In this document: positions 8,356 to 36,117 of the stretch, piece by piece
Numbering within the stretch: the first letter of the stretch is position 1
How the letters are laid out: every line of letters starts with the position of its first letter
DNA from: Thermoplasmata archaeon
GTDB lineage: Archaea > Thermoplasmatota > Thermoplasmata > Methanomassiliicoccales > Methanomethylophilaceae
NCBI GenBank assembly: GCA_015063235.1
Contig: SUSW01000015.1
Span: 1-36,117, forward strand
Reading direction: 5' to 3'
Length of the DNA stretch: 36,117 bases
Translations under genes and position numbers: made by a program
The notes under the pieces: generated by a model
Told to the model about the DNA's origin: nothing
Seen by the model: the letters and a program-made list of their open reading frames with translations, nothing else
The model's database searches: none

Positions 8356-9462
8356 ATGAAGAGGACACTGGTGCTGGCAGTGGATAGGGATGACGATTAC
8401 GGCGTCAAAGGAAGAGTCATCTCCCCGGTGATCGGAATCCAGAATTGTATCTCCGCTGCCAACGCATTGGGTTTAGCGGATCCGGAGGACTCGGACATCA
8501 ACGCATTGTATGCCGCGATCAGCACATGCATGGATCTTCAGGAGGACGGCATCGATGCCGATGTCGCACTCATCTGCGGTAACGAGAAGGTCGGTCACAG
8601 GTCGGATTTGGCGGTCGTCGCCCAGCTTGAGCAGGTCCTCGACGAGATTAAGCCTGATAACGTGGTCCTGGTCGGAGACGGCGCGGAGGACGAGTACATC
8701 TATCCGATCATATCCTCAAGGTCCCATGTGGACTCTGTCAAAAAGGTCTTCGTCAAGCAGGCCCCCAACATCGAGAGCTCATTCTATGTCATCTCCAAGA
8801 TGCTCTCGGAGCCCAACAAGAGGAAGAGGTTCATAGCACCTCTGGGTATCCTCATCACAGTGATCTCCCTGTTCCTCCTGATACCTGATCTGGTCATCGG
8901 TATAATGGACAACGACATCTCTAAGCTCAGCGCCATTTCCAGGGATCTGATCCTGCTGTTCGTGGGTATCATCATCCTGATGTACGCGTACAGCTTCATG
9001 CAGAGGGTTGAGGACCTCAGCTCTTTCTTCAAGGAGGACATCCTGTCGAGGAGTACGAGGCTGGTTATGACGGCCCTCGCCATCGGTATAGTGATCATCT
9101 CTGCCATCATCTGCTACTATGAGCTCAGGGACACCTACTTCCAGAATCTGTTCCAGGAGATTATATGCTTCTGTCTCATGATGGTCTGGCCTGTGGTCAT
9201 AGGTCTGATGGTGTACATATTCGGCAGCATCATCGATGACGTCCAGGAGGAGGCTGCATTCAGAGTGAGCAACGTTTTCATCTGCGTCAGTCTGGTCAGC
9301 ATCGGAATGGTCCTGACAGGTCTATTCGATATCGCGCTGTCATTCTCGCATCCCGCGTATGACGGTATGTCCGGAATCGCGGAGATCATCATCGGGATCG
9401 TCATAACGCTGGTGGCATCAGTGGTCAAGAACAAGTACAGGCCCGACCCGGTACCGGAGTGA
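8356..9462 (+). CDS. DUF373 family membrane protein
   Basis: A 368-residue archaeal protein. Residues 1-145 form a soluble alpha/beta domain starting LVLAVDRDDDYG and containing a LVGDGAEDE loop, as in DUF373. The C-terminal half has about six membrane helices. Function is unknown. An AT-rich element (AAATACTATTAATG) about 25-30 bases before the ATG suggests a nearly leaderless message. The terminal GAG-TGA-TC overlaps the Shine-Dalgarno of mptE, so the two are likely co-translated. Confidence 0.85.
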   Translation: MKRTLVLAVDRDDDYGVKGRVISPVIGIQNCISAANALGLADPEDSDINALYAAISTCMDLQEDGIDADVALICGNEKVGHRSDLAVVAQLEQVLDEIKPDNVVLVGDGAEDEYIYPIISSRSHVDSVKKVFVKQAPNIESSFYVISKMLSEPNKRKRFIAPLGILITVISLFLLIPDLVIGIMDNDISKLSAISRDLILLFVGIIILMYAYSFMQRVEDLSSFFKEDILSRSTRLVMTALAIGIVIISAIICYYELRDTYFQNLFQEIICFCLMMVWPVVIGLMVYIFGSIIDDVQEEAAFRVSNVFICVSLVSIGMVLTGLFDIALSFSHPAYDGMSGIAEIIIGIVITLVASVVKNKYRPDPVPE

Positions 9463-9466
9463 TCAG

Positions 9467-10111
9467 GTGGACTTCTCGGAGTGGGAACCGATTTACCGGG
9501 AAATCCTGGAGGATATGGGCTACAGCAGGGCTGACGACGAAAACTCTGTACGTATCCTGAAAGCGGTCACGCTCAACTCCAATCTGATCTCAGGCGATGA
9601 TGCAGCAGAGGTCCTGAAGGATACAGCTACAGTGGTAGGCAACGCGCCGTGCCTGGAGAAGGATGCGGAGGAAAGAGGCATAGAAGGCACTGTGCTCTGT
9701 TCCGGATCCGCGGTAGGTAGGCTGATGGCCTTGGGAGTACGCCCTGACATCATATTCACGGATCTGGATGGCGACATCGGGCCGCAGATCCAAGCAAGCT
9801 CCGAGGGAAGCATTACGTTCATACACGCCCACGGAGACAATCAGGAACTGATAACGGGATACGCGCCGATGTTCAGAGGCCCTGTGGTGCTCACCACGCA
9901 ATCAACCCCGGAGTACACCGTCTTCAATTACGGCGGGTTCACCGACGGCGACCGCGCATGCTGCTTCGCACGTCATTTCGGAGTCAGGAACATCAGGCTT
10001 ATTGGTTTCGATTTCGAGAATCCCATGCCCAAGGAAGGTTCCGATCCAGAGACCAAAAAGCGTAAGCTCTAGTGGGCAAGGAAGATCATTCAAAACCTGC
10101 AAATCCTTTGA
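9467..10111 (+). CDS. mptE: 6-hydroxymethyl-7,8-dihydropterin pyrophosphokinase MptE, with in-frame UAG
   Basis: Archaeal DUF115-type kinase of tetrahydromethanopterin/folate-type cofactor synthesis, transferring pyrophosphate from ATP to the pterin. Seen: GNAPCLEKD, SGSAVGRL, FTDLDGD, HAHGDN and GFDFENP motifs. The start is GTG 9467, preceded by GAGTGATC. A TAG at 10070-10072 would end the protein at 201 residues, right after KKRKL. The frame then continues with WARKIIQNLQIL to TGA at 10109-10111. Family members usually end with a helix of the form KL-x-WA-x-x-I-I, so the extension looks like the genuine C terminus. I therefore annotate through the TAG (214 residues). The likely reading is UAG decoded as pyrrolysine; premature termination is the alternative. 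Confidence 0.85.
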
Positions 10112-10157: not shown

Positions 10158-11786
10158 ATGGATACCGCAATGCTCGTATTGATAATCCTATTCATCATCT
10201 ATGTCCCGATATGGGTGTGGGTGTGGAGGAAACCCGAGCAGGCCGCAAAGTACCATCTTGTGAAGTACGGCCCTACGGTGATGATCAAGACGACCTTGGG
10301 TATCAAGGCCATGGGAAAGATAGGTAAGTACAAGACCTTCTGGCGCGTCTTCGGATTCATCTCCAAAGTGACCTCGGCGATCCTCTTCTTCCTCATGATG
10401 TACATGCTCATCGTCGCGATCATCGCGCTGCCTTCCAGGCTAGGAAGCGGAGGCATAGGTATCCAATACGCATTGGCCATACCCGGTTTCAACCCCATGC
10501 TCCCGCTGACCTATGGTATCGTGGCGCTTTTCATCGCTATGGTGGTCCATGAGATGGGTCACGGGATACAGTCCCGTGCCAACGACTGCGATGTGGATTC
10601 CACAGGCCTTCTTTACGGAGTGGTTCCCCTGGGGGCGTTCTGCGAGCCAAACGAGACACAGCTGAAGGCTCTGCACCGCAGGGGTCAGATGGATGTATAC
10701 GCGGCCGGGATCACAGTGAATACCTTCCTGGCGGCAATAGCTTTCGCGATAATGCTTGTCCTGGTATCGTCGGTCTCAGTGGCAGATTTCGGTCAGTCCG
10801 ATGCATCGGACTTGCCAGGAGTATATTACATCGATGAGGATTCTCCCGCATTCGTATCTGGCGTTCCTACGTCAGCATTGATTCTGGGGATAAAGGAAGC
10901 GGGTGAAGATGAGTTCCACGATGTCATCGTCAAGACGAACGGCCGTACTGTGTCGTTCGATTATGCGGATCCGAATCTGAAGATATCGCCGCTTAACACT
11001 TATATCCTCAAATACGCCACGGGCCCGAATGAATCCGATATAAAGGAATCGCAGGTATCCGTACAGATGGGAGCGCTCATCAAGACGGTGTCCAACAACA
11101 GCCCCGCGAAGTCCGCCGATCTGGAACCGCTCACGTTCCTTTATTCAATAACGCTCACTCACGGCGGTGCCACAACTGAGACGTACTTCTCCAACGCCTA
11201 TGATTTCCATACGTACATGTCCACCACTGAGGCCGGCGATCTGGCCACTGTCAAGACAGTGACGATCTCCGACGGGGGCGACATCGAGATCGTAACCCAC
11301 GATCAGGTCACACTCACATCGTCCGGTTCCCAGGGGTATCTCGGTATATCCGTCACAGACTCCGGATTCACGGTGACCACACCCTCGATAATGATCGAGA
11401 ACTCCATCAACCCATTCGCGGGAGCATCGGCCCCCATAGATTACGTTCAGGGCCTCTTCAAGTATCTGTCTGGACCGTTCAATGGTTTGGACCCCGTTCC
11501 CAACTCCATCACATGGTGGTACGATGCATCGGACTTTACATGGATAATCGTGAAGACCCTCTATTGGATCTTCTGGCTGGACATACTATTGGCTATATCC
11601 AATGCATTACCTGCCTACCCGTTCGATGGAGGCTTTTTATTCGAAGGAGGCATCAATTGGTTGCTCGAAAAGCTCGGCGTCAAGGATGCGGAGAAGCGCA
11701 AGAAGATGTCCGGGAACGCGTCCGGAGCTGTATCCACGGTCGTTCTGCTCATGTTCGGCCTGGTCCTGTTGACGTTCATAATATGA
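10158..11786 (+). CDS. Site-2-protease-like M50 membrane metalloprotease
   Basis: An intramembrane zinc protease of 542 residues. The zinc motif HEMGH is at residues 131-135 within a membrane helix. The second motif, NALPAYPFDGG near residue 485, supplies the third ligand Asp. A large extracytoplasmic region with PDZ-like sequence separates the two. Several further membrane segments are seen at both ends. The substrate is unknown; relatives cleave membrane-bound regulators or signal-peptide remnants. The Shine-Dalgarno is GAGTGATC, and a TATA-like TTATTATAAG near 10116-10125 indicates its own promoter. Confidence 0.88.
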   Translation: MDTAMLVLIILFIIYVPIWVWVWRKPEQAAKYHLVKYGPTVMIKTTLGIKAMGKIGKYKTFWRVFGFISKVTSAILFFLMMYMLIVAIIALPSRLGSGGIGIQYALAIPGFNPMLPLTYGIVALFIAMVVHEMGHGIQSRANDCDVDSTGLLYGVVPLGAFCEPNETQLKALHRRGQMDVYAAGITVNTFLAAIAFAIMLVLVSSVSVADFGQSDASDLPGVYYIDEDSPAFVSGVPTSALILGIKEAGEDEFHDVIVKTNGRTVSFDYADPNLKISPLNTYILKYATGPNESDIKESQVSVQMGALIKTVSNNSPAKSADLEPLTFLYSITLTHGGATTETYFSNAYDFHTYMSTTEAGDLATVKTVTISDGGDIEIVTHDQVTLTSSGSQGYLGISVTDSGFTVTTPSIMIENSINPFAGASAPIDYVQGLFKYLSGPFNGLDPVPNSITWWYDASDFTWIIVKTLYWIFWLDILLAISNALPAYPFDGGFLFEGGINWLLEKLGVKDAEKRKKMSGNASGAVSTVVLLMFGLVLLTFII

Positions 11787-15979: not shown

Positions 15980-16023
15980 AGATGAGAAGTGTCTGGCCAC
16001 AGCGGTTGTTCCCGTCTCCGGAT

Positions 16024-16300
16024 GCAAGTTGACCATTTCGCTCCTCAACCCTGCGACCCCATAAACGTCAGTGGTTCGAAGTGAGGCTGCTCCCGTCAGG
16101 ACCTGACCCGGTTTCCCCGATTAATGCTCGGTGAACAACCCTCCGGCTGTTCCCGCGGCAAACTCCGACTCTATAGGACAAGATGTCATAGTTGCTAGAT
16201 GGGCTTGCAAACATCAACGGGACCGCCCGCTGCTGTCACCCCCGCGTATTGACGATTTCGGGTATAGGACACGCCAAGCGCCCCGGTCAAGCCAAACAAA
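16024..16300 (-). ncRNA. ffs: Signal recognition particle 7S RNA
   Basis: On the minus strand the S-domain helix 8 signature is intact: GGGTCAGGTCC, a short loop, then GGGAGCAGCC (plus positions about 16084-16110). The 5' and 3' ends can pair (GGCTTGACC at 16293-16285 with GGTCAACTT at 16034-16026), as in archaeal SRP RNA helix 1/5, and a length of roughly 280 bases fits. A TATA box lies about 25-30 bases upstream of the inferred start. The ends are approximate. This RNA scaffolds SRP19 and SRP54 for co-translational targeting to the membrane. Confidence 0.85.
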
Positions 16301-35277: not shown

Positions 35278-36117
35278 TCACCCTGTTGTCGCAAGGGAAG
35301 GGTTGCGGGTCAACCCAAGGCGGAGTATGTTCACAGACGCGTTCAGATCGCGATCCATAGTCAGACCGCATACAGGACATATATGCACCCGGTCACTCAG
35401 CTCCTTGTGCACCATGTTATGGCATCTGGAACACATCTGCGATGTGTTCCTCGGATCCACCAGGATCAGCTCGCGGCCAGCTTCCATCGCTTTGTCGGAG
35501 ATCCTCTTCCTGAGCATACCCAAGGAACCATCGTTGTAGGATATCGTCATGTTCGGAGACTTTGAAACGGATCTGAGACCTTTTATCGATAGGTCCTCCA
35601 TCACTATCGTGGTATGGTTCTTCACGATATCCAATGAAGTCTTCTCCACGTAGTCCTTCCTTCTGTTGACGATCCTTCTGTACCTGTGATTTAGACGGCT
35701 TTTCGTCTTTCTGTATTGTTCGGTGTTGGTCAGCGTTCCTGACAGCCTTTCTCCGGTCTTCCTGAACCCGTCTATCGCTTTGGAGTATTCATGATTGTTC
35801 TCATAGACCGTACCATCCGATAGTACGGCAACGTTGGACACACCGATGTCGATACCTGCAGGTCTTGGCAGTTCCATCCGGAACATCCCGTTCGCGGCGA
35901 TATCCATCTACCCGCATTCGGCGGCGATGTGATGCCTGCATATCTCATCAGGCTATCCGTATTGGATTGTGGCGAAATACTCGTAATGAGTGCCGATATC
36001 CTTCCTTGAGATGATGACGGTTTTGGGTTCTCCTCTTATCGGCGTCGATTGGTTGTAGCATCTCAGAGTGCCTTTCATCTTTCCTAGCGAGAGGAATCTG
36101 CGTTCTCTTCCTTTGGC
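35278..36117 (-). CDS. tnpB: TnpB RNA-guided nuclease, partial, with two in-frame UAG codons
   Basis: The frame runs off the right edge and continues to TGA at 35278. RuvC motifs are intact: Asp in GIDIGVSN, Glu in IVMEDLSIKGL and Asp in MDRDLNASVNI. The zinc ribbon has CSRC...CPVC. TAG codons lie at 35953-35955 and 35908-35910. Upstream of both, the same frame still reads TnpB-like sequence (KTVIISRKDIGTHYEYFATI), with no TAA, TGA or frameshift. The ATG directly after the second TAG (35907) would give a 209-residue truncated protein. TnpB from IS605-type elements uses a guide RNA to cut DNA and promote element maintenance. No tnpA is visible. Either UAG is read as pyrrolysine or this copy is decaying. 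Confidence 0.8.

Follow-up and report, generated by a model that had tools for sequence, protein, structure and literature searches.

The 36,117-nucleotide contig SUSW01000015.1 of a Thermoplasmata archaeon from the Methanomethylophilaceae (order Methanomassiliicoccales; assembly GCA_015063235.1), hereafter referred to as the window, encodes an mptE-like gene of the 6-hydroxymethyl-7,8-dihydropterin pyrophosphokinase family (positions 9467..10111, plus strand) that contains an in-frame TAG codon. The host represents a gut-type methane-making archaeon, and the TAG codon in its mptE gene is very probably read as pyrrolysine (Pyl), the rare 22nd amino acid. The frame starts with GTG at position 9467. 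As claimed in a preliminary description of this sequence and confirmed here, it meets TAG at 10070..10072 directly after the residues KKRKL and runs on to a TGA codon. The gene comprises 214 codons if TAG is counted as an amino acid. The putative pyrrolysine codon is codon 202, the coding stretch following it (10073..10108, plus strand), WARKIIQNLQIL, holds the conserved KLxWAxxI tail, and the TGA at 10109..10111 (plus strand) presumably represents the true stop of the gene.

Identity of the gene was deduced from its family match and its likeness to a solved enzyme. The Pfam model MptE-like (PF01973) matched residues 51-184 (E 2.6e-20), and the 6-hydroxymethyl-7,8-dihydropterin pyrophosphokinase structure PDB 8sd5 matched residues 2-189 (E 6.4e-29), whereas none of the NCBIfam models matched the protein at E 0.001. 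The gene product is accordingly assigned to MptE, with a predicted pyrophosphokinase activity, and it gave a single match within its own genome.

Conservation of the Region Downstream of the TAG Codon

In order to evaluate whether the residues following the TAG codon are part of the protein, the 29 best-matching sequences of the order (L020-L048) were all read codon by codon. At the aligned position 202, a sense codon followed by W-A-x-x-I was found in 29/29 cases. The residue itself varies considerably, namely Ala in 11 relatives, Ser in five, Gln in four (codons CAG and CAA twice each), Gly and Arg in three each, Val in two and Cys in one. The nearest relatives (genomes G077 and G078) carry GTC at this site, and genome G073, a member of the same genus as the window genome, carries TCC (Ser). 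A second set consisted of 18 relatives from a contig database, representing Thermoplasmata, other euryarchaeal records, a halophile, Nitrosopumilus and Poseidoniales. Among these, 17 reach the site and all 17 feature a sense codon, an open frame onward and a KLx[W/I] tail, while the remaining sequence is cut by its own contig end before the site. The two sets overlap in two records (L002 and L003 are identical with L020 and L022), and 15 of the 17 sequences are not among the 29. Homologues ending at KKRKL were looked for across the 29 and 17 relatives reaching the site, and none was found.

In an alignment of 12 rows, the TAG codon is located directly between the invariant residues K200 and L201 and the nearly invariant W203. 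Order-wide, 135 of 147 genomes showed an mptE match, and an internal stop was observed in the window genome only; for 128 of the 134 other genomes, the match spans position 202 (tallied by eye from the order table). The TAG codon is therefore private to the window genome and occupies a variable position within a conserved tail. Since relatives carry a sense codon at the site followed by WAxxI, the stretch downstream of TAG represents real protein, as had been proposed previously from a KLxWAxxI helix described as usual for the family. Furthermore, the first seven codons after TAG differ from those of the nearest relative by three synonymous and no amino-acid changes (counted by eye), a pattern which speaks weakly against a truncated product, as the changes may predate the TAG codon.

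Pyrrolysine Machinery and Methylamine Methyltransferases

Genes for pyrrolysine synthesis and incorporation, which had been named in the preliminary description as a feature to look for, were all detected in the same genome (pylT, pylS, pylB, pylC and pylD). A tRNA scan of the window and a further 18 kb of the genome identified tRNA-Pyl with the anticodon CUA (cta; L052:7697-7767(-)). PylS scored above its family cut-off, and PylB, PylC and PylD, encoded in the same cluster, scored above their equivalog cut-offs. Moreover, six methylamine methyltransferase genes, each with one in-frame TAG codon, were found. Three of four mtmB matches contain one TAG, the fourth being a partial gene at a contig end without TAG; both mttB matches contain one TAG; and the mtbB gene contains one TAG that is spanned by its PF09505 match (2 to 464). 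The window genome thus carries all tested marks of Pyl decoding, namely tRNA-Pyl(CUA), pylS/B/C/D and TAG-bearing methyltransferases.

Usage of TAG as a Stop Codon

The role of TAG at gene ends was surveyed in 254,118 bases, comprising the window and 218 kb of other stretches and corresponding to approximately 14% of the genome. Genes were predicted by a codon-usage caller for open reading frames (ORFs) of at least 60 amino acids (aa), shorter ORFs being left out. Among 212 called genes, 176 end on TGA and 25 on TAA, and 11 meet TAG, these being the six methylamine methyltransferase genes, mptE and four others. All 11 frames run on past TAG, reaching a domain, repeats or a tail that has a counterpart in relatives.

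The four other genes differ in the nature of their extension. A TerB_N-domain protein (L052:1906-3180(-)) features 365 further codons after its in-frame TAG; its best Pfam stretch reaches only about five residues past TAG, and the case leans on the long coding-like extension. A BspA-type leucine-rich repeat protein (L062:1564-2901(-)) features 405 further codons, and the best of its seven LRR_5 stretches is located after TAG. For a third protein with 192 codons past TAG, a relative from genome G081 (36% identical) aligns across the codon. The fourth gene encodes a 134-aa protein (L059:1444-1845; contig C16 of the window genome, G000) with TAG at codon 127 and seven further codons. Six of its eight aligned relatives (L081-L088) reach the TAG site, where each has a sense codon followed by a partly similar tail; the other two end before it. 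In a motif search, the tail of this protein was recovered only in two near-identical copies; the other relatives were obtained by alignment. Genome G082, from the same genus, carries a copy that is 99% identical and shares this TAG. The mptE match of G082 is only 67% identical to that of the window genome, compared to 99% for the 134-aa protein, and the 134-aa gene was perhaps recently shared between genomes while carrying its pyrrolysine codon.

After the case-by-case check, none of the 212 called genes clearly ended on TAG. As a control, genome G110, a family member without PylS above the cut-off, was analyzed with the same caller, and 10 of its 72 genes end on TAG. Seven of these would be extended by 2-16 further codons and three by 65-85 codons scoring below zero, the cases being judged on extension length and codon score only. 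Fisher's test of 0/212 versus 10/72 yielded p 6.7e-7, or 5.8e-6 with one true TAG stop assumed in the window genome; both values depend on the reassignment of the 11 genes, the raw shares being 11/212 and 10/72. Because all 11 frames continue and no gene clearly ends on TAG, in contrast to G110, the codon behaves like a sense codon in the sampled part of the window genome.

In the Pyl-positive genome G078 of the same genus, one of 69 called genes ends on TAG. This 69-aa ORF has a continuation that does not look coding, and it may represent either a false call or a genuine TAG stop. In a crude ORF list of the window, 6 of 41 ORFs of at least 60 aa end on TAG; five of them (62-89 aa) were dropped by the codon-usage caller, and mptE was retained.

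Alternative Explanations for the TAG Codon

An assembly base error or a minority strain variant, with an ordinary residue at position 202 in the true gene, is an unlikely explanation. It would be compatible with an assembly of 54 contigs and 87% completeness and with the restriction of the mptE TAG to the window genome. However, the same genome contains other in-frame TAG codons, in methyltransferase genes as well as in four further called genes, and that of the 134-aa gene recurs in the 99% identical copy of G082. Since G082 shares this codon, in-frame TAGs are regarded as a real trait of these genomes, although the mptE base itself is not proven thereby.

It is less probable still that TAG acts as a true stop, resulting in a 201-residue protein without the conserved tail, either as a recent truncation or as a functional short form. 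Both the Pfam match and the match to 8sd5 end before TAG, and no other genome of the order with a match shows the codon, which speaks for this view. Nevertheless, the residues flanking TAG are among the most conserved of the protein, the tail is kept in all 29 relatives read, clear TAG stops are absent from the 212 called genes, and the synonymous-only changes downstream argue weakly in the same direction. Finally, decoding by another suppressor tRNA or a near-cognate one, with a standard amino acid placed at the site, appears highly improbable: the tRNA scan covered the window plus a single stretch of 18 kb, but the dedicated tRNA-Pyl(cta), PylS and the genes for pyrrolysine synthesis are present and would suffice.

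Proposed Decoding and Origin of the Pyrrolysine Codon

Based on these results, it is highly probable that the mptE TAG is decoded by tRNA-Pyl(CUA), which would yield an enzyme of 214 residues carrying pyrrolysine as residue 202. PylB, PylC and PylD would make pyrrolysine, PylS would charge tRNA-Pyl(CUA) with it, and the amino acid would be placed at a variable position directly before the conserved WAxxI tail. The earlier proposal that UAG is read as pyrrolysine in this gene is supported as an interpretation. The codon probably arose by neutral substitution at a tolerant site, in a cell hardly using TAG as a stop, and was probably kept because the cell presumably reads TAG well. A neutral origin is likely because position 202 is variable, and CAG, the codon for Gln in two relatives, is one step from TAG.

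Several observations weigh against pyrrolysine at this position or against its efficient incorporation. The TAG codon is not conserved, being seen in only one of the 135 order genomes with a match, and TAG cannot be reached in one step from the GTC codon of the nearest relatives. By codon usage, the 12 codons following TAG do not resemble coding sequence (score -0.7), the stretch being too short for this. Moreover, the sample used for the stop survey was not random, as it was composed of contigs named earlier in the analysis, three of them with pyl or methyltransferase genes. The change from 11/212 to 0/212 was reached only by individual reassignment of the 11 cases by inspection, of which the 134-aa and TerB_N cases are the weaker ones. 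An Rfam search of the window gave a signal recognition particle RNA as its single hit and no PYLIS-type element, and the 100 bases after TAG fold like shuffled sequences (z -0.42; 63 of 200 shuffles at least as good). PYLIS has been reported in a review to be non-essential, with amber suppression as the very likely basis of incorporation (PMC2933860). The same review gives an apparent efficiency of approximately 20-30% for an introduced amber codon, so that efficient reading of TAG is not to be assumed (PMC2933860).

A dependence of MptE on pyrrolysine would follow if the tail is needed for its function, and conservation of the tail suggests such a need. With moderate confidence, it is further proposed that TAG is no longer a stop in this species but a pyrrolysine sense codon, in which case the whole cell would need pyrrolysine even without methylamine use, by way of enzymes like MptE that act in pterin-cofactor synthesis. 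As far as seen, the pyrrolysine codon of mptE is private to one genome, and it is considered real and well supported.

Cofactor Assignment and Genomic Context of mptE

The product of MptE is common to folate and methanopterin synthesis. The preliminary description had placed pyrrolysine in an enzyme needed for a core cofactor. The cofactor concerned is probably folate rather than methanopterin. According to two published studies, methanopterin has no known role in Methanomassiliicoccales (PMC6147122), and their tetrahydromethanopterin (H4MPT) methyl branch is incomplete while a tetrahydrofolate (H4F) C1 branch is present (PMC10804542). Because of these features of the order, MptE of the window genome is predicted to serve folate synthesis.

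In the window, mptE is preceded by a DUF373 gene (8356-9462) and followed by an M50-type peptidase gene (10158-11786). A signal recognition particle RNA of the archaeal type (Rfam RF01857, 170 bits) is located at window positions 15990-16298(-).

Comparison with Known Systems

A study from 2009 reportedly dealt with Pyl in a protein other than methylamine methyltransferases and explained it by neutral evolution; this protein is a different enzyme from MptE and reportedly comes from a Methanosarcina lineage. Furthermore, a paper from approximately 2025 reportedly describes an archaeal code in which all TAG codons are read as pyrrolysine.

For 'Ca. Methanomethylophilus alvus', 16 putative Pyl proteins beyond methyltransferases and 1.6% TAG stops were reported, and the authors suggested that growth may come to depend on Pyl incorporation through codons of this kind (Borrel et al. 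2014, PMC4153887). The likeness to the present case lies in Pyl codons within genes for non-methyltransferase proteins, as in mptE here; in contrast, MptE is absent from the table of putative Pyl proteins given for that different species (PMC4153887). In the strain ISO4-H5, amber codons were described in 46 genes, methyltransferases included, and the core genes named encode adenylate kinase, phosphoglucose/phosphomannose isomerase and two geranylgeranyl reductases (PMC5011839). The strain ISO4-G1 features 25 genes with in-frame amber codons, nine of which are methyltransferase genes (PMC4824259). The mptE gene is not among the amber genes named in the text consulted for either strain (PMC5011839, PMC4824259), and MptE and pyrrolysine were not found together in the literature searched.

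Ten insertion sequences of ISO4-H5 were also reported to contain amber codons (PMC5011839). A TnpB-like protein with OrfB_IS605 and Cas12f1-like TNB domains, encoded at window positions 35278-36117(-) and cut by the contig end, features two in-frame TAG codons (35955 and 35910), and a 36% identical relative on contig C41 contains one; the TAGs of the TnpB-like protein fit the codons reported for these insertion sequences.

The preliminary description had placed Pyl, or efficient readthrough, in an enzyme unrelated to methylamine use. The rarity of such a case was overstated there, as amber codons in core genes outside methylamine metabolism have been published for the order (PMC4153887, PMC5011839, PMC4824259). 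Standard gene calling shortens or splits proteins containing TAG, such as the TerB_N and BspA-type leucine-rich repeat proteins. With the present case, the proteins apparently dependent on pyrrolysine come to include a conserved cofactor enzyme, which offers a concrete test case for the question of whether pyrrolysine has become essential outside methylamine metabolism. Pyl codons in unrelated proteins are known for the order, and the TAG codon of mptE extends a behaviour already described in close relatives.
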